Assembly: GCF_021353265.1 (NCBI RefSeq) | Contig: NZ_JAJTWU010000002.1 | Span: 744,001-808,000 of the forward strand | Reading direction: 5' to 3' | DNA: 64,000 nt | Source of the DNA: Pelomonas cellulosilytica | GTDB lineage: Bacteria; Pseudomonadota; Gammaproteobacteria; Burkholderiales; Burkholderiaceae_C | Part shown: piece after piece, positions 12,148-44,301 of the stretch | Numbering within the stretch: position 1 is the first letter of the stretch | How the letters are laid out: each line of letters starts with the position of its first letter | The notes under the pieces: generated by a model | The model's input: only the letters and a program-made list of their open reading frames with translations | Told to the model about the DNA's origin: nothing | Database searches by the model: none | Position numbers and translations under genes: made by a program

Positions 12148-12471
12148 TCAGGTCTGCATTGTGACGCCGGCGCCTGGCGGCTTGGCGTCTGACACCTCAA
12201 CAGCCGATCCTGGCTCGAGCTCCCGAAACCGGGTGCGATCCGTCATGCGACGGTTTGACACAAACTCCTGCGTGTGCAACCTGGGGAGCCCGTTGCGGGA
12301 AATCCGCACGGCGGGTTCTGTCAGAGGGGACGGCAAGCGCAATGCTCGAGGCCCGTCTCTATCCACCACGTCCTCTTCCGCCGCCAACAGGGCGCCAAGC
12401 AGAGGATCCCGCGGGGCATCGAAGATTCGTTTGCGTAATCGGGCCGTTCGCGCCGGCACATAATGGCCCAT
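12148..12471 (-). CDS. Hypothetical protein, doubtful
   Basis: A 107-codon frame starts at ATG 12471, divergent from gspG. The translation (MGHYVPARTARLRKRIFDA..., GALLAAEEDVVDRDGPRAL) has believable composition but no recognised motif. No ribosome-binding site is obvious. It may be chance in GC-rich DNA. Confidence 0.25.
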   Translation of the reverse strand: MGHYVPARTARLRKRIFDAPRDPLLGALLAAEEDVVDRDGPRALRLPSPLTEPAVRISRNGLPRLHTQEFVSNRRMTDRTRFRELEPGSAVEVSDAKPPGAGVTMQT

Positions 12472-12901
12472 GCTCTCATACCACATGCTAAGGCTTCGGC
12501 TCAACAAAGGCTTCACACTTCTCGAACTATTGGTGGTCATGGTCATCATCGGGCTGTTGGCGGGGTACGTGGGCCCGAAGTTTTTTGGCCAAATCGGCAA
12601 GAGCGAGGTTAAGGCAGCCCGCGCGCAGATCGATGCGCTAGAGAAGTCGCTCGACCAGTACCGCTTGGATGTCGGCCGATACCCAGCTACCGAACAAGGA
12701 CTCGCGGCTCTCAACACCAAGCCCGCCGACGAGTCGAAGTGGTCAGGGCCCTATCTGTCCAAGGCTGTACCCAAGGACCCGTGGGGACATGAGTACCAGT
12801 ACCGGAGTCCGGGCGAGCATGGCGAGTACGATTTGTTTTCCTTCGGCAAAGACGGCCGCCCTGGTGGCGAAGGCGAAGACGCCGACTTGACCAACTGGTA
12901 A
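12470..12901 (+). CDS. gspG: Type II secretion major pseudopilin GspG
   Basis: The 143-aa product has the prepilin signature: a short basic leader, cleavage before the Phe in KG|FTLLELLVVMVIIGLLA, and a glutamate at mature position 5. GRYPATEQGLAALNTKPA, DPWGHEYQYRSPG and the acidic C-terminus (FSFGKDGRPGGEGEDAD) match the calcium-binding fold of GspG. The start may be ATG 12485, giving a nine-residue leader; neither start has a clear Shine-Dalgarno. It is the only pseudopilin gene at this end, 21 kb from the rest of the apparatus, and an IS5-type element follows. It would be the main subunit of the pseudopilus built by the operon at 33476-42521, if the two work together. Confidence 0.93.
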   Translation: MLSYHMLRLRLNKGFTLLELLVVMVIIGLLAGYVGPKFFGQIGKSEVKAARAQIDALEKSLDQYRLDVGRYPATEQGLAALNTKPADESKWSGPYLSKAVPKDPWGHEYQYRSPGEHGEYDLFSFGKDGRPGGEGEDADLTNW

Positions 12902-13003
12902 GCCATTCGCCGCGCCGCAGTTCAACAATAGCGTTGTGCCGGTGGTCGTGTCGAACACGAGCACATTTAGGCATAAGACAGACGTCACCTTCTCGATCTG
13001 TCT

Positions 13004-13255
13004 CTAGGCGCGCTCCGTGTCTCGCCGGGATACGCCCGCCTTGGTCGGCGGCAGGCGCAGGTGAATTGTCGCGATCTGCCGGTATGCGGCCAAGGCCGCG
13101 GCGGGCGCCAACGTCTGCTCTGGTCCTTGAGATGCCTGCGGCGCAATGGCGGCCAGGCCGCGCTCAAACTTCGACTTCAGGGAAGAGGCCGCTGCACGAC
13201 TGACCTCACGACGAGCGTCCGCGGCCGGAAGTGACGGCGAATTCAAGATGTGCAA
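13004..13255 (-). CDS. Hypothetical protein or C-terminal fragment, doubtful
   Basis: An 83-codon frame with a TTG start contains ASSLKSKFERGLAAIAPQA, then ALAAYRQIATIHLRLPPTK and AGVSRRDTERA. The composition looks protein-like, but no family is recognised and it may be the tail of a lost gene. The rest of 12902-13318 holds no clear gene. A stem-loop (AGGGGCC-TTC-GGCCCCT, 13303-13319) lies at the downstream edge of the transposase. Confidence 0.25.
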   Translation of the reverse strand: MHILNSPSLPAADARREVSRAAASSLKSKFERGLAAIAPQASQGPEQTLAPAAALAAYRQIATIHLRLPPTKAGVSRRDTERA

Positions 13256-13318: not shown

Positions 13319-14349
13319 TCAGGACGGACTACTCCCTGCATACGGCTGCAGCCGCCCGCTTTGCAGCTTCCTCATCGCCTTGAGCAGGTTCACGCCGAGC
13401 GCCGCCCAGGCCATCTGCGCCTGCGTCTTGGCCACCCCGAAGTACCTCGCCCGGCTCAGGTGAAAGCGCCGCTTCATCGTGCCGAAGCCTTGCTCGACCT
13501 TGTAGCGCAGCTTGGCGATGGCCCGGTTTATCTGGGTCTGCAACGGATGCACCGGATGGCCCCGGCTGCCCTTGAGCTGGATCAGGTCACCGATGCCCTT
13601 GGCCTGGAGGTACTCACGGTTGGCCGCGCTGGCATAACGCTTGTCCGCCAGCACGTCCTCAGGCTGGATGCCTTGCTCGATGAGCGCGTCGACGATGCCC
13701 GGCAGCTTGTTCACCTCGGACTGGTTGGCCGGGTGCACTTCGACGTGTTCGACATAGCCGTCCTCGGTGTCCACGGCGCTGTAGCCGCGGTAACCGAAGA
13801 AGGCCTCATTGCCCTTCTTGACCCAGCGTGCTCCTCGTCGGCACTGTCCACCACGTCGGCCTGACCCTCGTCATCGACTTCGACATGCTGGTTCGGCCGC
13901 GCCGCACTCTCGATGATGGTGGCATCGATGATCGCGCCGCGGCTGCCGGCGACCTTCAGGCCCTGGCCTTCGAGCTGCACATTGACCCGGCGCAGCAGCA
14001 CCTGGTCGAGCTTGGCCGTCACGAGCCGGTTGCGGAAGCGGCAGATGGTGGTGGCGTCGGGGAAGCTGCCGTCACCGGGCTCGAAGCCGGTGAACACCAT
14101 GAAGTCCAGTCGTACCTTGAGCGCGTGCTCCAGCTGCGTGTCCGACAGTCCGTGCCATTGCCCCAGCAGCATCAGCTTGAACATGGACAACGGCGCGTAC
14201 GGCTCAGGGCCGCCGCCGTGCGTGGCCTCACGCTTGTACAGACCCTTGAGCTTGTGCGCGATCTCGGCCCAGTCCAGCAGCTCGTGCAACTTCATCGTCG
14301 GCGAGTCTTGGACCAGCGGCCTGGCGCCCATGAGGAAGAAGCTGTCCAT
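13319..14349 (-). pseudogene. IS5-family transposase, frameshifted
   Basis: The N-terminal part (14349 to ~13830) reads MDSFFLMGARPLVQDSPTMK, LLDWAEIAHKLKGLYKREA, FEPGDGSFPDATTICRFRNR (IS5-type DUF772 start) and GAIIDATIIES (first catalytic Asp). The C-terminal part continues in another frame: WVKKGNEAFFGYRGYSAVDT, VLADKRYASAANREYL, and then FGTMKRRFHLSRARYFG with the terminal E-loop. One missing base near 13830 (after DSADEEHA) joins them. Restoring it gives a full transposase of about 343 residues, so the loss is recent or a sequencing error. Terminal inverted repeats could not be fixed by eye. Confidence 0.85.
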
Positions 14350-15014: not shown

Positions 15015-18000
15015 ATGGCAGCCTTTGTCGCGCGCATTGTGAAAATCCTCATTGCTTTGCTATGCGGACTTTTTGTTCATGTCGCGGCGGCTGGGATAGA
15101 CACCCAGCTCTTTGGTGATGACGCGTCGAACGGGCCGTACCCAATCGGCTTCACGTTCAAGTACTACGGCGTCGAGCGTACGCAGTTCTACGTTTCCACA
15201 AACGGACTGTTGAAGTTCACCGGCGCGTCGACTGACTACAGCAACAGCTGTCTGCCGAGTGGCTCCCACCCCAACACGATCTTTGTGTTCTGGGATGATC
15301 TACGAACCGACTCGCCGAACAATCCGACCGGAAAGATCCACTATCAGACCGTTGGCGAGGCGCCGAACCGCAAGCTGATCGTTCAATGGACCAATCAGTA
15401 CTTCTACGGTTCAAACCTGCCGATGGGCACCTTCCAGGCAGTTTTGAGCGAGGGCAGCAATCAGATATCGCTGCAATACCGCTATCTGCGCGACACACGA
15501 AGCACAGGCACCGAAGCAACGATCGGCATCCAAGGCGGAAACGGCGAGAACGTGCAGGTCGGCTGCAATGCTGTCAATAGCATAGCTGGCGGCCAAGCGA
15601 TCTCGTTTACACCTGACTCGGCCGGTACGCAGTACGTGATGGATAAGGCCGCGGCCTACGACTTCATCGACATTTCCGGCCTTACCGCAGCAGCCCCAGA
15701 ACCGATGGGCCGTTACACGAGTACGGCGCCTGTCTGGCGCTGGTCGGGGATCCCTGACCTGAACACCTACCAAATTGAGGTGCAGACTGACACGGGTGCC
15801 ATCGTTGTGCCAGCCCAGACGCTCGGCAATGTCGACTCGTTTACTTGGTCTGCGGGCTACGAGGCCGGCAAGACCTATCTGGTGCGAATCCGGGGCAGCG
15901 TCAACAACGGCGGCACCTGGGAGGCTTGGTCAGCGTTCAGCTCGCCAACGACGATCGATCAGACGCCGCCAACAGCACAGGTTTCATCATTGACCCAGAT
16001 CAGCGCCAATGCGATTGATCTGCGCTACTCAGCCGTCGACCCAGGCGGTGAGGTTGGCTCGATCCGCGTGCAGATCGCCGGGAACCCGGAGTTCACGAGC
16101 CCTCTTGTAAACGAGTTGCTTCCCTCCGGCAGCACCAGCTACACCTATGGTGCGGCCGTGCCGGGGCAGCGTCTGTACGCACGCGTGATCGCGACCGACG
16201 CGGCTGGCAACAGTTCGGCGCCGTCGAATGCGCTCGATGTCCTTGTGGTACCAGCTCCGACCGCTGACTTCTCGCCGAGCGTTGGCTCGGGCGAGGCTCC
16301 ACTCACCGTCACGTTCGACAATCGCAGCACCGGACAGGCGTCGAGCTATCTTTGGAACTTCGGTGATGGACGCACCAGCAGCGTAGCCGCGCCGAACATC
16401 CGATACGAGGATGCGGGCACCTTCAATGTGACGTTGCGAGCAGTCGGCGTCGGGGGCTTCACAGACAAGACGGTATCGATCGTCGTGACCCCGGACGTGA
16501 CGCGCCCGAACGTGACGTCTGTCACCATTGACGGCGTAGTGATAGCGGGCGCCGTGACTTTGCAGCAGACGAAAGCTCTGCGGTTCAGTGCCAGCGACGC
16601 TAGCGGTGTGACCAGCGTCAGTGCGCGCTTTGCGGGACAACCGCTAGCGGTCGAGAGCTTGGGCGGCGGCAACTATCAGTTGTCGCTCAATCCGGAGGCA
16701 GTCCCAAACGGTGACTATGTACTGGAGCTGATGGTTGTCGACCGACCCGGCAACTCCTCGACGGCGACGGTGCCGGTTCGCGTTGATTTGCCGCCGCCTC
16801 CAGCGCCGGTCTTGCAAGCGAATCTGCCCACAAAAACCAATCGAGCTGGCGTGACCGTGGTGGGCACGACCCAGTTCGGCACTGAGGCACGCCTGCTGCT
16901 CAATGGCGCCGAGGCGACCGACTGGGTGCCCGTACAGAACCAGCGCTTCGAGATCGGCCTGACGCTAATCGAGGGCGCCAACCGCATCACGGCCATCGTC
17001 CGCAACTCGCGTGATCGTAGCCCGGTTAGCGCGGAACTGCTCGTGACACTCGATACCTCTAAGCCGCGTGCGCCGGGCTCGCTGACCACAAGCGCCTTTG
17101 CCCAGGGCAAGGTGCGTCTGGCTTGGCAGCCATCGCAAGATGCCGCTGCTGTCGGGTATGTGATCCTGCGCGCTGCCGGCCCCTTCGAAGACGTTGCCCA
17201 GGCCACTCGTGTCAACGGCACACCGGTTGCGGGATCCAGCTTCGATGATGTGCCACCGACAGATGGCATCTACTTCTACCGCGTCGCCTCCATCAACCAA
17301 CTTGGCACGCTGAGCCTCCTGTCGAACCTCGCTCAGGCGGTCGCTGACAACACGCCGCCCAAGATCAACGCCGTTGCATTCACCCCTCAGGGCAAGATGG
17401 ACGTCGCCACAGGCCGCTATGGTCAGGGGCGAGTCGATCTGCGCGTTACCTTCAGCGAGGCTTTGCAGGGCGATCCCTATGTGGCCCTCGCCCCGAACGG
17501 CAGCGCACCAATCGTGATCCAACTTGCTCACAGCGAGGCGCTGATCTACACAGGCAGCTTCGTCATCGACGCCAACACCCCGTCTGGCGTTGCGACTCTG
17601 CTGTTCTCGGGGCGAGACGAGGCAGGCAATCGGGGCACGGAGATCGTCGGCGACGCCACGCTCAAGATCGACACCATGGGGCCTGTGCTGGCTGCGATTG
17701 CCGTCACCCCGGCGCAACCCATCAAGTACCAGACCGGCAACGTGCTGTTGGCGCAGTTGACTTTCGACAAGGCGTTGGCTGCCGCGCCGCAGGTGCGCTA
17801 CCTGCTCTCGGGTGCACTGCGCACGCCGACCGCCATTGGCGATGTCGTCCAGATCGATCCCAAGACCTACCGTGTCAGCTTCACGTTGCCGAACGATGCC
17901 GGTCAGGGTGCACCTGAGTTCTTGAGCTTCAGCTTTCAGGCACTTGACGATCTGGCGAACAGCTCCAGCCGCGTCGCGGCCCAGAACCGATTCCAGGTCT

Positions 18001-21000
18001 ATCAAGGCACACTGCCTCCGCCCGCCGGCCCCTTGGGCTTCACGGCTAAGGCGCAGCCGGCCGGCCGAGTACTGCTGGCCTGGCAGTCTGTCGATGAAGC
18101 CACTAGCTATCAGATCTATCGCCAAACCCCTGGCCAATCGAACCTTGAGCCTCTGGGGCGAACGAGTGGTGTCAGCTACATAGACTCGACCAGTCTGGAC
18201 GGCACCTACAAATACGCTTTGGCTGCCGTGCGCCAGGCCAATGGCCAGGAGTCGCTGTCAGCCCAGACCTCACCGGTCGAGGTGATCGCCATCTCGAGCG
18301 GGCCTGGCGCGCCGCAAAATCTGACGGCGCGCCTGACCGGGCAGGGCATCTATGCAAGCTGGCAGGCGCCACTGGCAAGCCAGGTCGACTCCTACAACCT
18401 TTATCGTGCGGGTGGCACAGCGATTACCGCGACTGCGGGCCTGACGCCGCTTAAAACCAAGATCCGCTCGCTCGCCACCTACGACACCAATCCATCCCCC
18501 CAGGAGGGCGCGTATGCCGTTACGGCTGTCGATGCGGCGGGCAATGAGTCGGCGATGTCCAGCTCGATCTACCTCAATGCCAGCTTGCTGCCGGTGCGCA
18601 ACCTGCGCATCGAGCAGATTGGCAATGTACAGCCGACATTGAGTTGGCAGGCGCCGAACGGCAACCTCTCGGGCTATCAGGTTTACGTCGGCCCGGATGA
18701 CAGCAGAGTCCGCATCACGCCAAGACCAATCGCGGCGCTCAGCTTTGTCGATACCGGCTTCACCTCGGGTGAGCGCCGCTACACGGTCGCCTCGGTGGAT
18801 GCCAATGGCGTCGAGATGCCCCGAAGCCTGACACTTCCGAACACGGCGGTACAGATTGCCAGTGGCTTGCCGCTCAAGCGCGGCGTCATGAACCGAATAC
18901 AGGTGCAAGTCGGCAATCTTTCAACCCAGGGACTGAGCAATGCGCGTGTCGTCGTGCGAGTGCCGGTCGACAAGAACTCGACCGAGTTCAAGGAGCATCG
19001 CTCGGACGCGTTCGATCTGGCTGCGTCAGACACGCGACTCATCTCGCTCATCATCGGCGGACATGCTGATATGCCGAGCGTGGTGAATGCCCAGTTGGGC
19101 CTTGAGATTGCGCCCAATGAAGGAGAACTCGTCAAGATCGCCAGGGATCAGCGCATGGAGGTCGTTGACGGAGCGCTAGTGGTTGGCATGTCGACCGAGG
19201 AATTCGTGCGCGGCGGCGAAGGCAAGCTGAAGCTGTCGATCGAGAACACCAGCGATGTCGAGATCGAGTTCCTTACAGCGACTGGTAACGGTAGCGCAGA
19301 TTCGAATGAGTTGCGCTTCAAGATCCTTGACCTGGACGGAAATCTACTGGCCACGCAGCCATACCGCCAGGTCTTCGGTGCCAACGTAGTTACGCTGACG
19401 AACGGCCAAACTGTCGCACGAGTCGCCGCTGGTAGCAGTTATCAATCGGATCTGTTCAAACTCAACGTCCCGACCTCGAGCCCGAACGTAGTACGCGTTG
19501 TCCTTGAAGTCGACAAGCTGCGCTACCACTCCGGCCAGTCAGACGAAATCACGATCACGGGCCGCGGCTCGGAGCGCCAGGTGTCGCTCCTTGACACAGC
19601 CTATGTGGGCGAGGTCACCAACGTGACGCCGGTCAGCTCTTTCGGTGACCAAGACATTGTCATTACCGGTCGAGCGCGGGGCCGTGCAGGAGAACAGTTG
19701 CTGCCCAACACGCGCCTCAAGCTGATCTTGAATCAGCAGGGTTTCGAGCGCAGCTTCATGGTTGTCACTGACGCACAGGGACAGTTCACGTACACATTCA
19801 AGCCGACTCTGACCGACGCGGGCCTCTACAAAGTCAGCGCCGTACACCCAGACATCACCGACCGGCCGGAGCAAAAAGCATTCACGGTCAACCGAGTGAC
19901 TGTCGGACCGAGCCCTTATCGCCTCGATCTTGCGAAAAACTATCCGTTCACGATTCCTTTCACGGCCAAGGCCGGACCGGGTACTGCGGCGACCAATCTG
20001 CGTCTCTTGCTTGATCCGGCCAGCCAGCCCACTGGACAGATTCCGGCGGGACTGACGATCCAGCTGCCCAACCCGGTCAATTTGGCCGAGAAGCAGACCT
20101 TGAACTTGCCCGTGCAATTCCTTGCCTCGCAAGACGCGCAACCGAGTGGCACGCTGCTGTTGCAGGTCATCAGCGACGAGCACCAGGGCGCGCCTTTCGG
20201 CGTCCTGACAGTCAACTATGTGCTCAGCGAGGCTAAGCCCTTTCTGATTAGTACGCCGAATTTCGTAGAAAGTGGTATGTCGCAGGGCGGCACTCAGCTT
20301 GAGTCACTCGTTCTGCAGAACCGTGGGTTGATGGAGGCGACCAACTTGCGCTTCACGTTGACGAAGCCGGATGGCCAGACCCCCGCGCCTGCTTGGGCCG
20401 CCATCACCAGCCAGACGGGTGGAAGCCTGGCCGTTGGAGAGTTGCGCACGATAGATCTGAGCTTTGCGCCGCCGTCCGGCACCCCTGAGGGCGTCTATGA
20501 GTTTCGCCTCAATTACGTTGGCGACAACGTACCGACGGGATTCGTCAATGTCTATGTCAGCCTGACGCAGAGCGGCAAGGGGCATGTGCTATTCAAGGCA
20601 AGCGACATGTACACCGCCACGGTGGGAAAGGACGGCAAGCTGATTCAAGGTCTGGCTGGTGCGACAGTCCTCTTGCAAAACGAGGACGTAGCTACTGTCA
20701 CCGAGGAATTGACGAGTGACGCGGCAGGCGAAGCGCTGTTCCAAAACGTCCCGGCTGGTCGCTACAAGTTCAAGGTCAAGGCCAATAACCACCAGGAGAT
20801 TAGCGGGCGCCTGTCAGTCAAACCCGGTATCACGCTCAACCAGCCAGTGTTTCTCAACTACAACCTGGTCACCGTTGAATGGAGCGTACGTGAGGTGCCG
20901 ATACAGGATCGCTACGAGGTCACTCTCAACGCTACGTTCGAGACCGATGTGCCTGCTGCCGTTGTGATCATGCAGCCATCTAGCATCAACCTGCCGAAGA

Positions 21001-21503: not shown

Positions 21504-21508
21504 GTTGT

Positions 21509-33459: not shown

Positions 33460-33475
33460 CGGACACGGGTGACCT

Positions 33476-34714: not shown

Positions 34715-36390
34715 CGGCTGCGTTTGTGTTCACCGTGGCCACGGCAGGTCAGCTCGACGCAGCGCGCCGCCTGTCAGTGGAGCGCGATGTGCCGATGCTC
34801 GTCGCGCTCGCCGAGGCGGTGCTCGTGCCATTGCCGCAGTTGCTGGAACAGCTGGGCGAGCAACTGGGATGCGCCGTGTTGGGCCTGTCGGAGTTGCAGG
34901 CGCTGCAGCCGGCGTTCGACCTGGTGCCTTTTCCAGAATGCACGCAGCGCGGGCTGTTGGTGGCGCGCGGCGCCCGCGAGCTGCTTGTGCTCGGCGACCC
35001 GTTCGACGCTACCGCCGAGGACTGGGCGTTGCACCGCTGCCGGCAGGCCGGCGTGGTGCCCGAGGTGGTGCTCGCGCTGCCGTCGGACCTCCAGGCCTGC
35101 CTGATGCAGCAGGAGCGGGCACTGCGCGCGATGGACGGGTTCGAGGGCGCGCAGGCGGTGCAGGTTGACGACGACGTGGCCGCCGTCATCACGCTGGCCT
35201 CGATCAGCGACGACACCAGCCCGGTCGTGAAGCTGGTCAACTCCACCATCTACGACGCCTTGAAGTTGCAAGCCAGCGACATTCACCTGGAGTGCGATGC
35301 CAGCGGGCTGCGCGTTCTGTACCGCATTGACGGTGTGCTGGTGCAGATCACCGAGGTGCAGAGCCAGGAGATGGCCGAGCAGGCAGTATCGCGAATCAAG
35401 GTGATGGCCGAGTTGGACATCGCCGAGCGCCGCATCCCGCAGGACGGGCGTTTCAAGGTGCGGATCAACGGGCGCGAGATCGACTTCCGCGTCTCGGTCA
35501 TGCCCAGCATCTTCGGAGAGGACGCGGTCCTGCGGTTGCTGGACCGCCAGTCGCTGACCGAGGAGGCCAAGGCGTTGCGGCTGGATCACCTCGGCCTGGA
35601 CGCCGACGCGATCCGCGCGGTGCGCCGTCTGGCCGCCAAGCCCCACGGCATGCTGCTGGTGACCGGGCCGACCGGCTCGGGCAAGACCACCACGCTGTAC
35701 GCGGCCATCACGGAAATTCACACCGGGCGCGACAAGATCGTGACCATCGAGGATCCGGTGGAGTACCGCCTGCCGCGCGTGCTGCAGATCCCGGTCAACG
35801 AGAAGAAGGGCCTGACGTTCGCGCGCGGTCTGCGCTCGATCCTGCGACACGACCCGGACAAGATCATGGTTGGCGAGATCCGTGACGACGAGACCGCGCA
35901 GATCGCCGTGCAGGCCGCACTGACGGGTCACCTGGTGTTCACCACGGTACACGCCAACAGTGTGTTTGACGTGCTGGGGCGGTTTCTGCACATGGGCGTG
36001 GATGCGTACAGCTTCGCGGCGGCTCTGAACGGCATCCTGGCGCAGAGGCTTGTGCGCATCAACTGCACGTATTGCGCGGACAGCGCCGCACCGGACGCCA
36101 CCGCGCTGGCCGATGCCGGCCTGCTGCGCGAACAGGTGGCGGGCTGGACGTTCAAGGTAGGCACCGGTTGCAGCCACTGCCGCGGTGCAGGTTTCAAGGG
36201 CCGCAAGGCGGTGACCGAGGTGTTGGTACTGGACGATGAACTGCGCGAGATGATCGCGGCGCAAGCCCCCGTGACGGCCTTGCGGGCTCTCGCGCGTCAG
36301 CGCGGCATGCGCCCGCTGCGCGATGCGGCGATGCAACTGGTGGCGCGTGGAGAAACGACGTTGGAGGAGGTGGAGCGTGTCACGGGCTGA
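34711..36390 (+). CDS. Type II secretion assembly ATPase GspE-like
   Basis: The 559-aa protein has an N-terminal MshEN/GspE-N region, then the hexameric ATPase: Walker A GPTGSGKTTTLY, Asp box IVTIEDPVEYRLP, Walker B KIMVGEIRDDETA, His box TGHLVFTTVHAN, and a tetracysteine zinc motif (CTYC...CSHC) at ~450-490. It powers addition of pseudopilins. The start overlaps gspF by four bases. The full motif set suggests an active enzyme. Confidence 0.94.
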   Translation: MTAAFVFTVATAGQLDAARRLSVERDVPMLVALAEAVLVPLPQLLEQLGEQLGCAVLGLSELQALQPAFDLVPFPECTQRGLLVARGARELLVLGDPFDATAEDWALHRCRQAGVVPEVVLALPSDLQACLMQQERALRAMDGFEGAQAVQVDDDVAAVITLASISDDTSPVVKLVNSTIYDALKLQASDIHLECDASGLRVLYRIDGVLVQITEVQSQEMAEQAVSRIKVMAELDIAERRIPQDGRFKVRINGREIDFRVSVMPSIFGEDAVLRLLDRQSLTEEAKALRLDHLGLDADAIRAVRRLAAKPHGMLLVTGPTGSGKTTTLYAAITEIHTGRDKIVTIEDPVEYRLPRVLQIPVNEKKGLTFARGLRSILRHDPDKIMVGEIRDDETAQIAVQAALTGHLVFTTVHANSVFDVLGRFLHMGVDAYSFAAALNGILAQRLVRINCTYCADSAAPDATALADAGLLREQVAGWTFKVGTGCSHCRGAGFKGRKAVTEVLVLDDELREMIAAQAPVTALRALARQRGMRPLRDAAMQLVARGETTLEEVERVTG

Positions 36391-37729
36391 GCCGCGCCGG
36401 CCCGCCGCGTCCTTGGTGCTCGTCGTGCAGGCGCATCAGGTGACTTTCGGTGTGCGCGATGTGCGTTCCGGCGGCTGGGCTCAACTAGGCGGCGAGCCGA
36501 TGCCGCCGGCCGGGCTTCCTCGCCTTGTCAACCTGGGCACGGCGCTCGCCGCAGTGGCGCAGCGCTTGCGGGAGGGTGGTGCCGCAGTGGGCGAGGTGCG
36601 TGCCGTGGTGTCCGACACCTGGCTGGCCACCGTAGCGATCCCGTGGGCTCACGAGTTGCTGCAGACCCGGCAGGCTTTCGCATACGCCACGCAGTTGATG
36701 GACGAGGCCGGCTTCGAGGACGCCGCCGGGGATGCGATGCGGATTGACGATGCGCCCTATGGCCTGCCGCGCATTGCCGTGTCCTACCCGAGGGCCTTAC
36801 TGGCTGCGCTCGACGCCTGTGCCCAGGCAATGAGCTGTCGTGTCACGTCTGTGCTGCCGTTGTCGCAGGCGCTGTGGCGCGCCGGGCGTGGCGGCAGACC
36901 GGTCGCCCTGCGCACCGACGATGAGGTGATCCTGGTGACCGGCACCACCCGGTTGGAGGCCGTGACCACGCGCATGCGGCCGGATGACCGACCGCTGGAC
37001 CGCACGGACTTAGACCGCTTGTGGGCGCGGCAGATGCTGCGTGCACCGCTGGAGGCAGGCACCAAGCCGAGACTGCTGGACCTTGGCCCCGCAGGCCATG
37101 TGGTTCCGGTGCTGTCCGGCTCGTGGGAGCCGCTGCTTCTCGTTCGAGATGGCGTTGAAGCGCCCGTGCTGCTGGACGTCACCGTGCAGGCGCAACGGCA
37201 GCGTGGCGATGCGCTGGACGCCGTACCTGCCTCGCTGCGCCCCGGCGGCGCCGCGGTCGCTGTGCTGGCGACGCTGGCTGCGTTTGCGATGGTGCTCGCT
37301 TGGAGCGCATGGCAGTCGCAACAGGAGGCCATGCAACTTGCGCGACAGGCCGAGCAACGCAGCCGCCCTCCGGCGCCACGGCCTGCGCCGCGCACGTTGG
37401 ACAAGGAGAAACTCCTGCGGCAGCAGGCCATCGACGCCGCCGCGCAGCAACTGGACGCGCCGTTCCATGCCCTGTTGAAGGCATTGCAGCCCGCGCGCGA
37501 CATCCAGGTGGCTGTGCTCGGCGTCGATTTCACGGCGGCTGGGGGCAACGGCAGCGGCCGCATGGTATTGATGGCCGAGGCCGCCAGCGCCCTCGACATG
37601 ACGCGCTATGTCAGCTTCATCGACGGCCGCCGGCCGCTGGGCGAGGCTTACATGACGCACCACGAGCAAGTGCCGGTAGCCGGCGGCACGGGCTATCGCT
37701 TCACGCTGGAAGTTGCATGGTCGAAGTGA
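36377..37729 (+). CDS. PilM/GspL-like inner-membrane assembly protein
   Basis: GTG 36377 is preceded by GGAGGTGGAGC, giving a 450-aa protein that overlaps the E gene by 14 bases. The N-terminal ~290 residues have the weak actin-like pattern of PilM/GspL. One transmembrane helix follows at ~296-315 (AVAVLATLAAFAMVLAWSAW), then a periplasmic part with a ferredoxin-like end, like a PilM-PilN or GspL fusion. It should connect the ATPase to the periplasmic components. The assignment rests on size, topology and position; sequence signatures are weak. Confidence 0.65.
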   Translation: MSRAEPRRPAASLVLVVQAHQVTFGVRDVRSGGWAQLGGEPMPPAGLPRLVNLGTALAAVAQRLREGGAAVGEVRAVVSDTWLATVAIPWAHELLQTRQAFAYATQLMDEAGFEDAAGDAMRIDDAPYGLPRIAVSYPRALLAALDACAQAMSCRVTSVLPLSQALWRAGRGGRPVALRTDDEVILVTGTTRLEAVTTRMRPDDRPLDRTDLDRLWARQMLRAPLEAGTKPRLLDLGPAGHVVPVLSGSWEPLLLVRDGVEAPVLLDVTVQAQRQRGDALDAVPASLRPGGAAVAVLATLAAFAMVLAWSAWQSQQEAMQLARQAEQRSRPPAPRPAPRTLDKEKLLRQQAIDAAAQQLDAPFHALLKALQPARDIQVAVLGVDFTAAGGNGSGRMVLMAEAASALDMTRYVSFIDGRRPLGEAYMTHHEQVPVAGGTGYRFTLEVAWSK

Positions 37730-38301
37730 CGGGCATGCGACGCCGCGTGCAGCCCTTGCGCTGGGTGGTCGCACGGCAGTGGCGACGATGGCTGCAGCGT
37801 CGCGGCTGGTTCAGCGCGCTGGCGCCATTCGTGCTCGTTTGGCTGCTGATGGCCGCGGCATGGCAGCAATGGCAGGCGCAGCAGGTAGACGCCAGGCGCG
37901 TGCAGTTGCAACAGCTGCCGCCCACCCTCGCGCCGCCGCCGCCTCTGGCGGCAGACGTGCGGGCGGAGCGCTTTGAGGCGCTCCTGCCCCCGCGCGCCGA
38001 CCTCCCGCAGCGCGTGCAGGCGCTCCTCGACGCCGCACAGGCCGTCGGTCTGGTGGCGGCGAAAGCCGACTACCAGGCGCAGCCCGATACTGTTGCCGGC
38101 GTGGTGCGCTACCGCGTCACGATGCCGCTGCGCGGCCAGGGAGCGCAGGTGCTCGTGTTCGTGCAGCAGGCGCTGGCGGCCGACCCGGCACTCGCGCTGG
38201 AAGGATTGCAGATCAAGCGCGAGTCGGCCGCGTCAACCGACGTCGAAACCACCGTTCGGTGGGTGCTGTTCTCGCGTCTGTCGGTTATGGGGAACCCTTG
38301 A
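37717..38301 (+). CDS. GspM/PilO-like bitopic protein
   Basis: The 194-aa product starts at ATG 37717, overlapping the upstream gene by 13 bases. It has a short basic cytoplasmic tail, a single membrane helix (~31-49, LAPFVLVWLLMAAAW), a coiled or proline-rich linker and a periplasmic domain of ~110 residues ending in a ferredoxin-like repeat. This topology and place in the operon match GspM/PilO. Identity at the sequence level is not evident. Confidence 0.6.
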   Translation: MVEVTGMRRRVQPLRWVVARQWRRWLQRRGWFSALAPFVLVWLLMAAAWQQWQAQQVDARRVQLQQLPPTLAPPPPLAADVRAERFEALLPPRADLPQRVQALLDAAQAVGLVAAKADYQAQPDTVAGVVRYRVTMPLRGQGAQVLVFVQQALAADPALALEGLQIKRESAASTDVETTVRWVLFSRLSVMGNP

Positions 38302-38828
38302 TGAAGCGTATGCGTCGGCGCGCGGGCCTGGCTGTGGCGCTGGGCGCCACACTCGCCGCTACGGGCGCCGCCTGGTGGCGCGATGGCGGCCGCGAGGCGG
38401 CTGCCGCCATGTCGCCGACGGCGGTGGCCTTGCCGGCCCGCGCGCCACGAGCCGCGTCACGCCCGCCAGCGAATGTGCCCCCGTCGGTGACGGCCGGCGA
38501 TTCCGATGCGTTGACGCTGTTCGACCCCGCGCCGTGGTCATCCGCGCCGGCCGTACAGGCTCCGACCCAGACTGCTGCCGCCCAGCAGGTCGCGACCGTC
38601 GAGGTGCCGGCCGGCCCGCCGCCGCTGCCGTTCCGGCCGCTGGGGCGTTTCGACGACAACCAGGGGCCTGTGGTCTTCCTGATCCATGGCGACCAGAACC
38701 TTGTCGTGCGCAAGGGCGAGCGCTTCGCGGACGGTTACCGACTGGAAGAAATCAACGGCACGGTGGTGAGCATCCGCCACCTGGCCACAGGACAGTTACA
38801 GACACTCGATTTGGGAAGCGGCTCATGA
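38301..38828 (+). CDS. PilP/GspC-like periplasmic protein
   Basis: ATG 38301 overlaps the previous stop by one base (TGATG). The 175-aa protein has an N-terminal membrane anchor (LAVALGATLAATGAAWW), a long Ala/Pro-rich linker, and a compact C-terminal beta domain (PLGRFDDNQGPVVFLIHGDQ, VRKGERFADGYRLEEINGTV) like the HR domain of GspC/PilP, which docks onto the secretin. Confidence 0.65.
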   Translation: MKRMRRRAGLAVALGATLAATGAAWWRDGGREAAAAMSPTAVALPARAPRAASRPPANVPPSVTAGDSDALTLFDPAPWSSAPAVQAPTQTAAAQQVATVEVPAGPPPLPFRPLGRFDDNQGPVVFLIHGDQNLVVRKGERFADGYRLEEINGTVVSIRHLATGQLQTLDLGSGS

Positions 38829-38862
38829 GCCCGGTACAGCAAGGGAATCGAAGGTGAAGACG

Positions 38863-41106
38863 ATGTGGAGCCGGATCGGGCGGGTCGAGTGGGCGCTGGT
38901 CGTGGTCCTGGCGCTGGCCGGATGCGCTGGGCAGCAGGTCTTCCGCGAGGGCCGGGGCTTGGCCGCCGAGGGCAAGCCTGAGGCGGCTCTGGCCAAGATG
39001 GGCGAGGCTGTCCGACTGGAGCCCACCAATGCCGAGTACCGCATCGCGCTGGCGACGCTTCGCACCTCAACGGTCAACGAGTTGCTGCACAAGGCGGAAG
39101 CCGCTCGCCGCGACGCCCGCTTCAGCGACGCGGAAAAGATCTACACCCGGGTGCTGGCGCTTGAACCCGACAATGAGGCCGCCACGCGCGGTGTCGCCAC
39201 GCTGGTGCGTGATCGCCGCCACCAGCAGTGGATGGCCGATGCCGAGCCACTGCTGAAGACGCCCGCCGGTCAAGCCGAGGCGCTGGAGCGCGTTCGACAG
39301 GTGCTGCTGGAGAACCCGCAGCAGCGCCAGGCGCAGTACCTGAAGGCCCGCATCGACGAAGAGCAGCGCAAAGCCGCTCGACCCGAGGCGCGGCTGGGCG
39401 AGGCGTACCGCCGGCCGGTGTCGCTGGAGTTCCGTGACGCGCCGCTGAAGTCCATCCTAGAGGTGATCGCCAAGGTCGCGGAACTCAACTTCTTCTACGA
39501 CCGTGACGTCCGGCCCGACCTGCGCGCCACCGTTGTGGCCAAAAAGACGACCGTGGAAGACGCGCTGCGGCTGCTGCTGGTCACCAATCAGCTGGAGTTC
39601 AAGGTGCTCAACGACAACTCACTCCTGATCTACCAGAACACGCCGCAGAAGCTCAAGGAGTACCAGGAGCTGGCTGTGCGCAGCTTCTTTCTGGCCAATG
39701 CCGATGCCAAGGCCGTAGGCAACACGTTGAAGTCCATCGTCAAGACTCGCGACCTGGTGGTGGACGAGCGACTCAACGTTATCGTGATGCGCGACACGCC
39801 CGAGGCGGTGCGCTTGGCCGAGCGCATCGTGGCGCTGCAGGATCTCGGCGATGCCGAGGTGATGCTGGAAGTGGAGATCCTGGAGGTCAAGCGCTCGCGG
39901 TTGCTGGAACTGGGCATCCAGTGGCCAGGCCAGCTGTCGCTGACGCCTTTGGTCGCCGATGGCGCCGCCCTGACGCTTAGCCAGCTCTCCGATCTGCGCG
40001 CCAACAACATCCGCGCCACGGTAGGCAGCGTGGTCGCCAATGCCCGCAAGGAAGACCAGGACGGCAACATCTTGGCCAACCCGCGCATTCGTGTCCGCAA
40101 CAAGGACAAGGCCAAGATCCAGATCGGCGACCGCGTGCCGGTTATCACGACGACGTCCACCTCCACGGGCTTCGTCTCGGAGTCGGTCAACTACGTTGAT
40201 GTTGGCCTCAAGCTGGAGGTGGAGCCCAACATCCATCTCGACCAGGAGGTGGCGATCAAGGTCAACCTGGAGGTGTCCAACCTTGTGCGAGAGATCGTCA
40301 GTAAGTCTGGCACGTTGTCCTACCAGATCGGCCAGCGCGCGGCCAACACCGTGCTGCAACTGCGTGACGGCGAGACGCAGGTGTTGGCCGGCCTTATCAG
40401 CAACGAAGACCGCGTGACGGCCAGCAAGGTGCCCGCGCTGGGTGACCTGCCTATTGCAGGCCGGCTGTTTGGCAGTGGCAAGACGGACGGCCAGCGCAGC
40501 GAGATCCTGCTGTCCATCACACCCCACATCCTGAGGTCGGTGCAGCGGCCCGACCTGCTCGCCGCGGAAATCGACTCTGGCACCGAAGGCAGCGTGGGCG
40601 CGCCGGCGCTGCGGCTGTCCGCAGCGCCCGAGCCGGCCGCGTCGGCTGCTATGCAGACGCCGGTGCCACGCACGGCCGTGGTGGCCGCGCCGAAGGCCCT
40701 GGCCCTCAGCTGGTCCGGGCCGGTGCAAGTGAAGGCGGGAGAGCAGTTCAGCGTCGCGCTCAAATTGGGCACGGACAGTGCCCTCAAGGGCGCGCCCGTC
40801 CTCATCGGCTTCGACCCGCAGATCTTGCAGGTGGTGTCGGTCGCGGAGGGCGACTACTTCCGGCAGGCCGGTGGGCGGTCTACCTTCACCCACCGCATCG
40901 ATGCGGCCCAAGGACGCGTGTTCGCCGCCGGCGTACGCGAGGGCGAGGCGGGCATCAATGGTACGGGGGCGATACTGACGCTGGTTGTCCGCGCGCTGAA
41001 ACCGGCGCCAGCCGCGGCGATAACACTCTTGTCAGCCACGCCGGAGCCTGCGGCCAGCCTCGCCACAGCGTTGCCGCTGCAGCACTCCGTCAAGATCGAA
41101 CCATGA
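38863..41106 (+). CDS. Secretin with N-terminal TPR and C-terminal cohesin-like domain
   Basis: ATG 38863 has AAGGTG six bases upstream (GTG 38854 is the alternative). The 747-aa lipoprotein (LALAGCAGQQ, lipobox Cys at ~residue 22) has TPR-like repeats (~30-140), secretin N0/N1-type modules (VSLEFRDAPLKSILEVIAKV; VVDERLNVIVMRDTPEAVRL), the secretin beta-barrel region (LANPRIRVRNKDKAKIQIGD; TVLQLRDGETQVLAGLI; EILLSITPHIL, the last ending at ~555), and then ~150 residues of cohesin-like fold (VKAGEQFSVALKLGTDS, GAPVLIGFDPQILQVVSV). It would be the outer-membrane channel. The cohesin part, on the secretin itself, is unusual and could bind exported partners. Confidence 0.9.
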   Translation: MWSRIGRVEWALVVVLALAGCAGQQVFREGRGLAAEGKPEAALAKMGEAVRLEPTNAEYRIALATLRTSTVNELLHKAEAARRDARFSDAEKIYTRVLALEPDNEAATRGVATLVRDRRHQQWMADAEPLLKTPAGQAEALERVRQVLLENPQQRQAQYLKARIDEEQRKAARPEARLGEAYRRPVSLEFRDAPLKSILEVIAKVAELNFFYDRDVRPDLRATVVAKKTTVEDALRLLLVTNQLEFKVLNDNSLLIYQNTPQKLKEYQELAVRSFFLANADAKAVGNTLKSIVKTRDLVVDERLNVIVMRDTPEAVRLAERIVALQDLGDAEVMLEVEILEVKRSRLLELGIQWPGQLSLTPLVADGAALTLSQLSDLRANNIRATVGSVVANARKEDQDGNILANPRIRVRNKDKAKIQIGDRVPVITTTSTSTGFVSESVNYVDVGLKLEVEPNIHLDQEVAIKVNLEVSNLVREIVSKSGTLSYQIGQRAANTVLQLRDGETQVLAGLISNEDRVTASKVPALGDLPIAGRLFGSGKTDGQRSEILLSITPHILRSVQRPDLLAAEIDSGTEGSVGAPALRLSAAPEPAASAAMQTPVPRTAVVAAPKALALSWSGPVQVKAGEQFSVALKLGTDSALKGAPVLIGFDPQILQVVSVAEGDYFRQAGGRSTFTHRIDAAQGRVFAAGVREGEAGINGTGAILTLVVRALKPAPAAAITLLSATPEPAASLATALPLQHSVKIEP

Positions 41107-41588
41107 GAACACAGCGCCGCGCGAACCGCGGCTTCACCTTCATCGAGCTGATCGTGACGCTGGCCATCATGGGTGTGCTTGCGCTCGTCTCGGTGCCCAT
41201 GGCTCAGCTCAGTTATCAGCGTCAGCGCGAGCATGAGTTGCGCCTGGCGCTCATCGAGATTCGCACCGCGATCGACGACTACAAACGAGCTTCCGAGCAG
41301 GGCCGTATTGCGCAGAAGCTGGGCGACTCCGGCTATCCCCCGTCGCTCACCGTGCTGGTCGACGGCGTGGAGGATCAGCGCAGCCCTGTCAGGCGCAAGA
41401 TTTTTTTCCTGCGCCGGGTGCCTCGCGATCCAATGGCCCTTGAAGACGGTACCGATGCCGCGGCCTCGTGGGGGCTACGCAGCTACGCTTCCCCGGCCGA
41501 TACCCCGCAGGCAGGCGACGACGTCTACGACGTGTATTCCCGTTCCGACGCAAAGGGGCTGAACGGCGTGGCATATCGGTCATGGTGA
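41103..41588 (+). CDS. Pseudopilin (prepilin-type N-terminus)
   Basis: The 161-aa protein has a prepilin peptidase site (RG|FTFIELIVTLAIMGVLAL) with Glu5 and then a globular part (IRTAIDDYKRASEQGRI, VPRDPMALEDGTDAAAS) resembling GspG-type pseudopilins. The start overlaps the secretin stop by four bases. It is probably a minor or alternative subunit of the pseudopilus. Confidence 0.85.
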   Translation: MRTQRRANRGFTFIELIVTLAIMGVLALVSVPMAQLSYQRQREHELRLALIEIRTAIDDYKRASEQGRIAQKLGDSGYPPSLTVLVDGVEDQRSPVRRKIFFLRRVPRDPMALEDGTDAAASWGLRSYASPADTPQAGDDVYDVYSRSDAKGLNGVAYRSW

Positions 41589-41974
41589 AGCTGCCGCTTC
41601 GCAGCGCTAGACGCGGCTTCACGCTGGTGGAACTGTTAGTAGTGCTCGCAATCACCGCGCTGCTCCTTACCATCGCGTTGCCGCGCTACTTCGGCGCGAT
41701 CGACAAGTCGCGCTACACAGTGCTCAAGGAGAATCTGCGCGCGATCCGCAGCAGCATCGACAAGTTCTATGCCGACCGCGGCGCCTACCCTGAGTCGCTT
41801 GACGAGCTCGTTGAGGGCCGCTACCTATCCATGGTGCCCTGGGACCCCATCGCGGACTCCGACCGGCAATGGATACTGGTACCACCACCCGGCGACGAGC
41901 GCGGTCGCGTGGCGGATGTGAAGAGCGGCGCGGCCGGCACCGGCCCAGACGGCAAGCCCTATGAATCGCTATGA
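41582..41974 (+). CDS. Pseudopilin (prepilin-type N-terminus)
   Basis: ATG 41582 gives a 130-aa protein with a leader MVKLPLRSARRG followed by FTLVELLVVLAITALLLTI, so the cleavage site and Glu5 are intact. The mature part (DKFYADRGAYPESLDELVEG, PWDPIADSDRQWIL) is GspG-like and short. It overlaps the upstream gene by seven bases. Confidence 0.85.
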   Translation: MVKLPLRSARRGFTLVELLVVLAITALLLTIALPRYFGAIDKSRYTVLKENLRAIRSSIDKFYADRGAYPESLDELVEGRYLSMVPWDPIADSDRQWILVPPPGDERGRVADVKSGAAGTGPDGKPYESL

Positions 41975-42521
41975 GCTCCGACGGCGACGGAGCCGTGGCT
42001 ATACCTACCTTTGGTTGCTGCTGCTCGTCGCGCTGATGGCGGTAGGGTTGACGCGCGTGGTTGACGTGCAGTCACAGGCGGTGCGGCGCGACAAGGAGGC
42101 GGAGCTGCTTTTCATCGGCATGCAGTTCAGCCAGGCACTGGACAGTTATTCGCGCGGCGGCCCTGTCGCGGATCGACGGGAGTACCCGGCCACGCTGGAC
42201 GACTTGCTGGTCGACCGGCGAGGCGGTGGGCTGCGGCGGCACCTCCGCAAGCGCTTCACCGATCCGATGACCGGCAATGACCAATGGGGGCTGGTGATGG
42301 CGGGCGGGCGTATTGTGGCTGTCCATTCTCTGTCCGAGCAGCGGCCGCTTAAGCAGGATCACTTTGAGCCCGCCCAAGCTGGCCTGGCGAGCAAGTCGCG
42401 CTATGCAGAATGGCTGTTCGGGCGCGATCCGGCAGCGTTGACGGCGGAGCCCGGCCAGCTCGTTCATCCGCCCCAGGTATCGGCCTCACAGCCAGAGCGC
42501 GCGGCTTCTTCGATGTTTTGA
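41961..42521 (+). CDS. Pseudopilin-like minor component
   Basis: The 186-aa protein has RSRGYTYLWLLLLVALMAVGL at its start: a hydrophobic helix after a basic leader, but no Glu at mature position 5, so it departs from the canonical prepilin site (as GspK does). The remainder (RDKEAELLFIGMQFSQALDS, YPATLDDLLVDRR, KRFTDPMTGNDQWGL) matches proteins annotated as type II secretion components in similar operons. It would sit at the pseudopilus tip. Overlaps at both ends (14 bases upstream, one base downstream) tie it to the operon. Confidence 0.72.
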   Translation: MNRYELRRRRSRGYTYLWLLLLVALMAVGLTRVVDVQSQAVRRDKEAELLFIGMQFSQALDSYSRGGPVADRREYPATLDDLLVDRRGGGLRRHLRKRFTDPMTGNDQWGLVMAGGRIVAVHSLSEQRPLKQDHFEPAQAGLASKSRYAEWLFGRDPAALTAEPGQLVHPPQVSASQPERAASSMF

Positions 42522-43438
42522 TGCAAGACGGGATGTGGAGCATGAGATGGACGTGGCGGTTGAGCTTCGTGGCGTTGGCGACAACGCTGGGGACGGTGTT
42601 TGCGGCAAGCAAGCCGCCGGCCGGCGTGGAGGACTTCCAGCCTGCGGCGGCCATGTGCCGCATCGACGACCTGCGCTCCGATGCTGCCGGCAACGCAGCA
42701 GGTGTGGCCGATGCGGTGGCGGACGTCGGCTGCCTTCTGGCGCCCGCGCAGGTGGCGGCGCTGCAGGAGAAGGGCAACCCGGTCGTGGCCGACCTCCGGG
42801 GCGCTGATGCGTATGCAGTCTCCCATCTGCCCGACGCCATCCTGCTAAGTCCCGTTGAGTTGCGCACGAAGCCGTACTGGAAAGACCGCACCGTGGTGCT
42901 GGTGGGCTCCGGCAAGGGGGAGCGGCAGCAGTTGCAGTTGTGTAGCGCCTTGCGCGCCGGCGGTCATGCGAATGTGTATGTGTTGCGGGGTGGCATGGCC
43001 GCGTGGGGGCGGGATGCGCGCCCCGAAGCCGGCCGGCCAGCTGACCTGGACAGCCGGGCTTGGTTAACCGCAGGAGAACTGTTCATCGAAACGCAGGATC
43101 CGGCCGCGCTGCTGCTGGTGCCGCCCTCGCAGTCGGCTGTTCGGACCGTCCTGGGTGCCGGGCAGCCGCTTGATGACGAGGTGGCCGACGTGCAGCGCGC
43201 GGAAGTTGTCGTGCGCAAGGCGCTCAAGGCGGTTCGCACGGCGCCGGCACGTGTTGTCCTGGTGGCGCCGCGCTCGTGGTCGGGCGCCGATCTGGATGCC
43301 CTGGCCAGGAAGCTGTTGCCGTTGCCGTTGCTGGCTTATCGGGACGGAGCATCTGCAGTCGATGAATTCGTGCGTGGACACCGTGCAGGCCTCGTCGCGC
43401 TGGCGCGGGGGCCAAAAGTCCCCAGATGCGGGTTGTGA
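42521..43438 (+). CDS. Exported rhodanese-like protein lacking the catalytic cysteine
   Basis: ATG 42521 overlaps the previous stop (TGATG). The 305-aa product has a signal peptide (~6-25, FVALATTLGTVFAA). The rhodanese fold shows in VVADLRGADAYAVSHLPDAI and YVLRGGMAAWGRD. The active-site loop reads LVGSGKGERQQ, so Cys is replaced by Gly and sulfur transfer is unlikely. The last ~120 residues may hold a second, degenerate rhodanese domain. It is translationally coupled at both ends and so belongs to the operon. A binding or regulatory role in the periplasm is suggested. Confidence 0.75.
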   Translation: MQDGMWSMRWTWRLSFVALATTLGTVFAASKPPAGVEDFQPAAAMCRIDDLRSDAAGNAAGVADAVADVGCLLAPAQVAALQEKGNPVVADLRGADAYAVSHLPDAILLSPVELRTKPYWKDRTVVLVGSGKGERQQLQLCSALRAGGHANVYVLRGGMAAWGRDARPEAGRPADLDSRAWLTAGELFIETQDPAALLLVPPSQSAVRTVLGAGQPLDDEVADVQRAEVVVRKALKAVRTAPARVVLVAPRSWSGADLDALARKLLPLPLLAYRDGASAVDEFVRGHRAGLVALARGPKVPRCGL

Positions 43439-44301
43439 TGCAGGACAGTCTGACGCGCCGGGCGCTGCTTGCCACAGCGGTCGGCCTGCCCATCTGCCTG
43501 CATGCAGAGGAGAGGGGCGCTGTTGAAGCCCAAAGGCTGCGTGTGCGTTTCTCTCTTGGCTTCGTGAATCCGCGTGAGACCGAATTGGCGCATCAACGGA
43601 TCTGGTGCTATTTACCCGCCTCCTTGTTACCCGCGCAGCAACTCGCTCACGTTACTGCACGGCCTTCGATGGCGCTGCACAGGGACCACGTTGGGCACAA
43701 CTATGCTTCGGTCGAGATCGCGACAGTACCGGCGCATGGCCGCGTGTACATCGCGTTCGACGCGCAGGTGCAGATGGCCAATGTGGGCGAGCCAGTTGCC
43801 GCACCAGCTGACTGGCTGACGCCGGAGCGTTTCATCGAGTCCGACCATCCAGACATCATGGCCCTGGCGCGCGGGCTGCGCCAGCTCTCCGAGCACGCCA
43901 CCGTGGAGGCGATTTTCGACTGGGTGGCGACGGAGGTGTCCTATGCAGGCTACCTCGCAGATGACCGTGGCGCCTTGTATGCGCTGACTGAGCGTCGCGG
44001 CGACTGCACCGAGCAGGCCGACCTAGTCGTGGCGCTGGCCCGTGCATGCAGCATTCCGGCGCGCATGGCCGGCGGATACGTCGTTGAGCGGGACACAGTC
44101 CTGAACGCGGTGGACTATCACAACTGGGCCGAAGTCGGCCTGGACGGGAATTGGCACATCGTCGATGCCAACCGCCGCGAGCTGTTTCCCTCGACGTGCC
44201 GTTACCTGCGATTCCGTCTCTACCGTGACGTCCCTACCAATCCGCTGGGGTTCGCGCATCGGCATGCAGTCGAGGGAGCGCTGCAGGCGATCGAGAGTTA
44301 A
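43438..44301 (+). CDS. Exported transglutaminase-like protein
   Basis: ATG 43438 overlaps the rhodanese-like stop (TGATG); ATG 43426 is the alternative. The 287-aa product starts with a twin-arginine-like signal (SLTRRALLATAVGLPICL). The transglutaminase core shows the Cys (RRGDCTEQADLVVALARACS), His (VDYHNWAEVGLDGNWHI) and Asp (VDANRRELF) of the catalytic triad. Such domains cleave or cross-link peptides. As the last gene of the operon it may process the pseudopilus, a giant protein or the Rhs product. Its target is not known. Confidence 0.82.
   Translation: MQDSLTRRALLATAVGLPICLHAEERGAVEAQRLRVRFSLGFVNPRETELAHQRIWCYLPASLLPAQQLAHVTARPSMALHRDHVGHNYASVEIATVPAHGRVYIAFDAQVQMANVGEPVAAPADWLTPERFIESDHPDIMALARGLRQLSEHATVEAIFDWVATEVSYAGYLADDRGALYALTERRGDCTEQADLVVALARACSIPARMAGGYVVERDTVLNAVDYHNWAEVGLDGNWHIVDANRRELFPSTCRYLRFRLYRDVPTNPLGFAHRHAVEGALQAIES

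Follow-up and report, generated by a model that had tools for sequence, protein, structure and literature searches.

A type II-like secretion operon genetically linked to a predicted split Rhs toxin and giant partner proteins in Pelomonas cellulosilytica

Introduction

By what route could an Rhs protein with a Sec-type signal leave the cell? Many Rhs proteins in the family of Pelomonas cellulosilytica have such signals but have been assigned no route across the outer membrane, and a 64,000-nucleotide stretch of the genome of this species (contig NZ_JAJTWU010000002.1, positions 744,001 to 808,000; hereafter the window) raises the question in concrete form: two Rhs genes lie there between genes for two giant proteins, followed on the same strand by an operon for a type II-like secretion apparatus. 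A first-pass annotation, made from the letters of the window, proposed that a dedicated type II-like route exports an Rhs toxin on a surface scaffold. Comparing the locus with related genomes, we find the neighbourhood conserved and recurrent, which makes a dedicated type II-like route for Rhs the best-supported reading of the locus, with the correction that the secretin family as a whole is not tied to Rhs. Judging from gene content and linkage, we think it somewhat probable that the locus encodes a genetically dedicated type II-like apparatus for a predicted Rhs polymorphic toxin and its giant partners.

Part of this answer has precedent. Bcn-A, an Rhs-family bacteriocin of Xanthomonas perforans, loses its activity in an xpsD mutant, which is experimental support for a type II secretion system (T2SS) being able to carry an Rhs toxin; excerpts of that report also describe a need for accessory genes, among them ORF4, whose small product is in part similar in sequence to WapA and RhsA (PMC7259588). 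The likeness to our locus lies in an Rhs protein that has its own immunity gene and whose antibacterial activity in the supernatant depends on a T2SS secretin; the difference is that Bcn-A uses the general Xps T2SS, and the excerpts mention neither a dedicated apparatus nor giant Ig proteins next to it (PMC7259588). Toxins that combine a signal peptide with RHS repeats, HINT and HNH-type tails have been assigned to Sec/T2SS (Zhang et al. 2012, PMC3482391), in a Table 1 that, as excerpted, gives this class no signature neighbour genes, whereas the dedicated operon of the window would be such a signature. An Rhs structure paper, again in its excerpted text, lists T2SS among the Rhs routes (PMC10684867). 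T2SS-dependent Rhs export and Sec/T2SS Rhs toxins as a class are thus already known; what would be new is the dedicated linked apparatus, of which we found no report in the open-licence literature searched.

Results

An Rhs unit followed by a type II-like operon

Profile and open reading frame (ORF) checks of the window recover all the genes listed by the first-pass annotation, on the + strand and in the order it described. The features are as follows (numbers with L, G and C denote loci, genomes and contigs).

12470..12901, +: gspG, major pseudopilin (TIGR01710 equivalog, 185.9 bits against a cut-off of 88.9)
13711..14349, -: transposase (DUF772) ORF, between gspG and the cassette
15015..21503, +: 2162-aa giant exported-type protein (P0003), with fn3, PKD and Ig domains
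21509..23365, +: Rhs-A, N-terminal half of a split Rhs, Sec-type signal (ORF of 633 aa, probable start 21509)
23362..28038, +: Rhs-B, 1558 aa, Sec-type signal, two Big_3_5 domains, C-terminal Rhs half, HINT, HNH-like tail
28048..28509, +: DUF4265 gene, probable immunity protein
28720..29298, +: glutaredoxin-like protein, N-terminal CxxC pair and one hydrophobic segment (relatives in L186, L039, L133)
29383..33459, +: 1358-aa giant Ig-type protein (P0008; relatives in window-type loci)
33476..34714, +: GspF-like platform protein (T2SSF, 168.8 bits)
34711..36390, +: GspE-like ATPase (T2SSE, 420 bits)
36398..37729, +: L-like protein (GspL / PilM-PilN), from a weak GspL_C match, order and relatives (start approximate, ORF opens at 36323)
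37735..38301, +: M-like protein (GspM / PilO), from order; relatives annotated GspMb/PilO (L028) and PilO (L029)
38301..38828, +: P-like protein, which we take to be of PilP / GspC HR type, from position and relatives
38854..41106, +: secretin with lipobox Cys24, TPR, STN, N1, secretin domain and cohesin-like C-terminus
41103..41588, +: pseudopilin 1, N-methylation motif
41582..41974, +: pseudopilin 2, N-methylation motif (start approximate, ORF opens at 41468)
41961..42521, +: pilin-like protein 3, no family match (relatives in 85 loci)
42410..43438, +: rhodanese-domain protein
43426..44301, +: transglutaminase-like protein, conserved C-H-D, with an export signal that is presumably of RR type

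Within the Rhs unit the gap is 5 nt between the genes of the 2162-aa giant and Rhs-A, -4 nt between Rhs-A and Rhs-B and 9 nt between Rhs-B and the DUF4265 gene; 210 nt precede the glutaredoxin-like gene, and 16 nt separate the end of the 1358-aa giant gene from gspF. A promoter/terminator scan of the window was uninformative. No VgrG, PAAR or Tc family was matched among the 36 window ORFs scanned with Pfam, smaller ORFs lying outside that scan.

Linkage of secretin and Rhs genes across genomes

We sampled 120 genomes of the window's family, of which 31 carry secretins of the window kind and 40 an Rhs core. Within the same 31 genomes, 12 of the 46 window-kind secretins have an Rhs core no more than 20 kb away, against 7 of the 104 other secretins (Fisher p=0.0024); under random placement 0.76 linked secretins are expected, and 12 were reached in 0 of 200,000 draws. 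At the level of whole genomes, the Rhs core is present in 19 of 31 with the system against 21 of 89 without it. The count of 12 does not include G028:C117, where secretin and Rhs lie 20.05 kb apart, start to start, and where the link may be incidental since the secretin belongs to another subclade and sits upstream of P0003. One further locus, L155 (G027), is linked, its Rhs being cut by the contig end.

We placed 129 secretins on a tree: 27 are Rhs-linked, 68 are not and 34 have flanks too short. A secretin counts as linked here if an Rhs lies no more than about 13 kb away, for loci from a scan of named genomes (at least 523 secretin relatives, best 80 kept), or no more than 20 kb away, for loci from the family sample. 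The linked label requires 15 changes on this tree against 25.0 in shuffles, with 0 of 500 shuffles as low (unjudgeable rows counted as unlinked), so that the label is both clustered and recurrent; with unjudgeable rows left out the number is 11. L111, L026 (a near-duplicate of L027) and G101:C363 were left out, and G028:C95 and G066 entered as L034 and L064. An earlier tree was biased, 11 of its 12 added loci having been chosen for Rhs, and the tree of 129 adds the unlinked rows of that same sample. Two loci scored as unlinked on it, L038 and L040, are really linked, because their 10-kb flanks hide an Rhs 12-16 kb away.

One secretin clade is Rhs-linked at every locus (12/12: 11 in one comparison and the twelfth, L043, in two others). 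It spans Massilia, Herbaspirillum, Janthinobacterium, seven genera of the window's family and two metagenome-assembled genomes (MAGs), one of them Gallionella, and without L155 it had a support of 85 in the earlier, biased tree. In one clade, linkage persists over a total branch length of 5.2 substitutions per site. The clade to which the window belongs (14 rows; support 93 in the biased tree) has seven members linked within 20 kb, namely the window, L025, L039, L118, L038, L040 and L049; L037 and L033 are unlinked, and L034, L035, L036, L041 and L042 cannot be judged from their contigs. L047, just outside this clade, is again Rhs-linked. Conservation of the neighbourhood had been set beforehand as the test by which the proposed route might fall, and what we find is a neighbourhood both conserved and recurrent.

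The cassette and its variants

The recurring order is giant, Rhs, second giant (P0008) and then F-E-L-M-P-secretin-pseudopilins-rhodanese-transglutaminase. Complete or cut by a contig end, this cassette is found in five more loci: Eleftheria (L025), G033 (L118/L165), Hydrogenophaga (L040/L187), Chitinolyticbacter (L038/L186) and a Sterolibacterium MAG (L047/L189). G033 has a second Rhs between P0008 and gspG; at L189 the first giant is reduced to its end at the contig edge, and the contig stops within the secretin. The Rhs near L049 (L188; 3513 aa) shares only 27% identity with Rhs-B, and neither cassette giant turned up at L049/L188.

The first-pass annotation saw no Tc gene, which holds for the window ORFs scanned, but among Rhs-linked loci elsewhere the Rhs partner is a TcB-like protein with SpvB, FG-GAP and TcdB_midN in six of the nine scanned (L028, L052, L054, L122, L126, L155). 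Other partners match FG-GAP only (L125), TIG (L030) or PKD (L076), and at L123, L124 and L133 the Rhs chains have Big_3_5 repeats. No PAAR or VgrG was matched in the seven linked Rhs proteins scanned. In Tc toxins, TcB-TcC forms a two-chain Rhs cocoon; the split Rhs and these TcB-like partners resemble that arrangement, while the Rhs pair of the window differs from it in having no SpvB or Tc family. TcA was not found in 13 genomes, in a search that had no positive control.

Two loci have arrangements of their own. The Janthinobacterium lividum plasmid p356839 (L028) holds three sets of FG-GAP-like, Rhs and small genes around one type II-like operon, and in the same-genus genome G030 (L127, 717-10766) a 3349-aa single Rhs ORF stands shortly before the secretin part of the operon.

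One Rhs chain in two halves

Two Rhs proteins with signals had been described in the window. Both are present and both carry signals, but they are halves of one Rhs chain: residues 8-616 of Rhs-A (from 21509) and 450-1526 of Rhs-B align consecutively on the single-chain Rhs of G033, at 54% and 53% identity respectively, with 4 residues between the aligned parts. The same two-part alignment is obtained on the single chains of Eleftheria, Chitinolyticbacter, Hydrogenophaga and the Sterolibacterium MAG and on the second Rhs of G033. The chain is cut at the same place in the window and in G028:C117 (Mitsuaria sp. WAJ17, the genome of L034), and after the cut the second half opens in both with its own signal and Big_3_5 domains. 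We reject the idea that Rhs-A is a decayed gene, given its shared end point in L133 and its colinearity with the single-chain relatives.

Rhs-B matches RHS repeats, Big_3_5 twice and the RHS core (TIGR03696, 77 bits against a cut-off of 32.5). Of the Hint and HNH domains reported for it, PT-HINT lies exactly at its cut-off of 27.7, but HNH reaches 15.4 bits, under its cut-off of 21.4. The core has a DPxG motif pair at residue 1179 with a spacing of 19 residues; the spacing is given as 18 in the excerpted text of PMC10684867. The structure model of Rhs-A has a mean pLDDT of 61.6, residues 1-209 being unreliable (under 50). Its best Foldseek match is 7q97 (E=7.5e-21), and T6SS (type VI secretion system) Rhs cocoons come first among its matches, followed by teneurins and Tc chains (Tc from rank 30 on); with TM at most 0.39 among the matches listed, this speaks to fold class only. 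The Rhs core of the window is homologous to solved T6SS Rhs proteins. Unlike T6SS effectors, the window pair has Sec signals, and none of the proteins scanned matched a PAAR, VgrG or chaperone family.

The Sec signals seen on both window proteins are not special to linked Rhs. On a home-made scale, 27 of the 33 linked Rhs ORFs have a Sec-type score of at least 3, as do 16 of the 23 unlinked ones, where edge-cut ORFs without a signal had been dropped beforehand, the unlinked set was hand-picked among long ORFs, and the score misses Rhs-B itself, whose start lies past the scanned stretch. As a discriminator of linked Rhs, the signal fails.

Residues 501-1200 of Rhs-B are 48-73% identical to relatives, and HINT is kept in the window, G033, L186, L187 and L133 at 41-46% identity. 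Among the loci compared, the tail past residue 1457 matches L039 only (42% over 83 residues), and the DUF4265 gene occurs only in the window and L039 (27% over 132 residues), so that the predicted toxin tail and its probable immunity gene occur side by side in two loci. With its conserved core, variable C-terminal tail and candidate cognate immunity gene, Rhs-B fits a predicted polymorphic toxin.

The type II-like apparatus

The secretin matches the Pfam secretin domain at 135 bits and falls below the cut-offs of both full-length models tried, with 154.7 bits for PilQ (cut-off 284) and 146.3 bits for GspD (TIGR02517, cut-off 351); its closest solved chains are PilQ, with GspD close behind. Its lipobox Cys24 is invariant in 21 aligned rows. 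The L-like protein matches GspL_C under the cut-off (E=0.005), and its structure model (pLDDT 43) is of low confidence and too poor for a structure search; the M-like and P-like genes have no Pfam match and are assigned through gene order and relatives. GspG-type pilin matches occur in 88 of 89 loci, other pseudopilins possibly among them. The rhodanese is probably catalytically inactive, Cys being absent in 11 of 11 proteins, window included, at the aligned loop that we take to be the active site, and the C-H-D triad of the transglutaminase is kept in 10 of 10, again with the window.

The system shares GspE and GspF with canonical T2SS (Xcp, Xps, Gsp) and, like them, has a secretin and a GspG-type pseudopilin, of which the window copy is displaced. 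It differs in that the secretin is one that lies under the GspD cut-off and has a lipobox, TPR and a cohesin-like tail, in having no Pfam-recognised GspC, and in its transglutaminase and Cys-less rhodanese. In our view the apparatus belongs to a widespread type II-like family of machines encoded beside their cargo, and several lineages of this family, that of the window among them, are coupled to Rhs. A cohesin-dockerin tether was considered and rejected: a scan at E 0.1 found no dockerin in the giants and Rhs proteins of the window, and the single Dockerin_1 match is in the partner protein of L052, inside an FG-GAP stretch. The cohesin tail as a marker of Rhs was dropped too (20/43 against 7/52, p=0.0005), independent pairs on the tree giving it no support.

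Giant proteins and the position of gspG

In the 2162-aa giant, fn3, PKD_4, Big_13 and Big_7 score above cut-off; of the NIDO/PKD/fn3 composition first given for it, PKD and fn3 stand, but NIDO (21.8 bits) is under its cut-off of 25. Its C-terminus consists of a Gly-rich linker and a two-Cys tail conserved in 6 of 6 distinct proteins, window included, which could be an anchor or sorting signal. The Ig, fn3 and PKD domains hint at a possible surface-scaffold role for the giants.

The gspG gene is present as announced but displaced, 2.1 kb upstream of the gene for the 2162-aa giant and with the DUF772 transposase ORF between; in window-type relatives, L025, L033, L036 and L041 among them, gspG stands directly before gspF. 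The window gspG has 88% identity to the copy in a second such system that the genome carries (G000:C29) and 51% to the copy on C27, the contig carrying the canonical gspD. This second system (locus L132) is another type II-like operon of the same family; its secretin is 42% identical to that of the window, and no Rhs was matched in the 19-kb stretch examined.

Flanking genes

The window also holds genes on either side of the locus. On the - strand, 1-1290 resembles the REase-TIR-PNTD partner of short Argonautes (PADLOC, 273 bits) and runs off the window, and 1403-5346 is a Gabija pair (PADLOC; GajA 997 bits, GajB 812 bits). Directly after the transglutaminase gene come a Y2-type transposase and a phage-type integrase (44872-47125, -), then a 1307-aa ORF with no Pfam or PADLOC match (47283-51206, +) and, at 51260-60719 (-), genes for a CHASE2 protein, for a protein of FecR type and for one of 931 aa that contains a GH10 domain.

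Discussion

How firmly do these data tie the apparatus to Rhs? Several observations weigh against a dedicated route. Control secretins, at 7/104, also lie near Rhs above random placement, and 68 of the 95 judged loci have no Rhs nearby (two of them, L038 and L040, being linked at 12-16 kb). No Rhs lies close to the window-type operons of Variovorax (L037) and Accumulibacter (L033), and no Rhs core was matched anywhere in the genomes of L033, L035 and L041. Secretins of other subclades adjoin an M4 protease (L029), S8 proteases (L078, L143) or a nuclease-type protein (L109), so the machine as a family is not Rhs-specific; a multicopper oxidase as cargo in L027 and L102 was dropped when Pfam gave no confirmation. 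Relatives of P0008 are rare (2/200 genomes of the order, one being the window's own), the gspG slot between P0008 and gspF is empty in the window (also in L037 and L038), the window gspG is closest, by sequence, to that of the paralogous C29 system, and Sec signals are common on unlinked Rhs.

The alternative that best withstands the data, though we regard it as rather unlikely, is that the general (canonical) T2SS exports Rhs and giants while the linked operon exports something else, for example the giants only. The canonical GspD of the window genome could serve the Rhs: mutation of the general-T2SS secretin abolishes Bcn-A activity, as excerpts of that report state (PMC7259588), and canonical GspD scores above cut-off in 26 of the 31 family genomes. 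Many unlinked Rhs have Sec signals, and G020 (L197-L198) has P0008, P0003 and Rhs in a row with no apparatus, no window-family secretin (best P0013 match 71.7 bits) and two canonical GspD. What speaks for the dedicated apparatus instead is that Rhs lies close to dedicated secretins more often than to others (canonical GspD above cut-off: 2/27, counted by eye), and that one whole secretin clade is linked.

A second alternative, which we consider improbable, is a type IV pilus-like surface filament machine with giants and Rhs associated with the filament rather than secreted by a piston. The order L-M-P-secretin mirrors PilM-PilN-PilO-PilP-PilQ, and the secretin scores higher with PilQ than with GspD and has PilQ as its nearest solved chains; the near-universal GspG-type pilin matches, the secreted-type proteases of related loci and the operon itself, between whose genes no retraction-ATPase gene was seen, argue the other way. 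Clustering in an accessory island with no functional coupling would fit the flanking transposase, integrase and defence genes and the control secretins near Rhs, but an ordered cassette conserved across several families and a linkage kept over such branch lengths make it very improbable. A T6SS route is rejected: the proteins have Sec signals and, among those scanned, no PAAR/VgrG match, and the T6SS marker VipA, present in 9 of the 12 linked genomes, which counts for such a route, is lacking in the other 3.

If the apparatus is dedicated to Rhs, it might work as follows. Judging from their signals, the giants and the Rhs chain or chains would cross the inner membrane by Sec; the Rhs halves would fold in the periplasm as a cocoon around the HINT-HNH tail, as the Rhs fold and the single-chain relatives suggest; and, by homology, a GspE/GspF/L/M/P platform would drive a short pseudopilus that pushes cargo through the lipoprotein secretin. 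The giants may then hold the toxin at the cell surface, which is the weakest step, and the DUF4265 protein would protect the producer. A bolder version, possible although we lean against it, is a third dedicated class of Rhs delivery besides T6SS and Tc, in which a pseudopilus-driven liposecretin machine evolved with a two-chain Rhs cocoon and a giant Ig scaffold, the separately exported halves assembling around the toxin outside the inner membrane for surface display and contact-dependent killing.

For Rhs proteins with Sec signals, the linked, recurrent apparatus offers a concrete candidate route and a genomic signature, and naturally split Rhs chains offer material for studying how a toxin cocoon assembles after Sec export. 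The recurrence of the cassette suggests a private export route for an Rhs toxin in many soil and water Betaproteobacteria.

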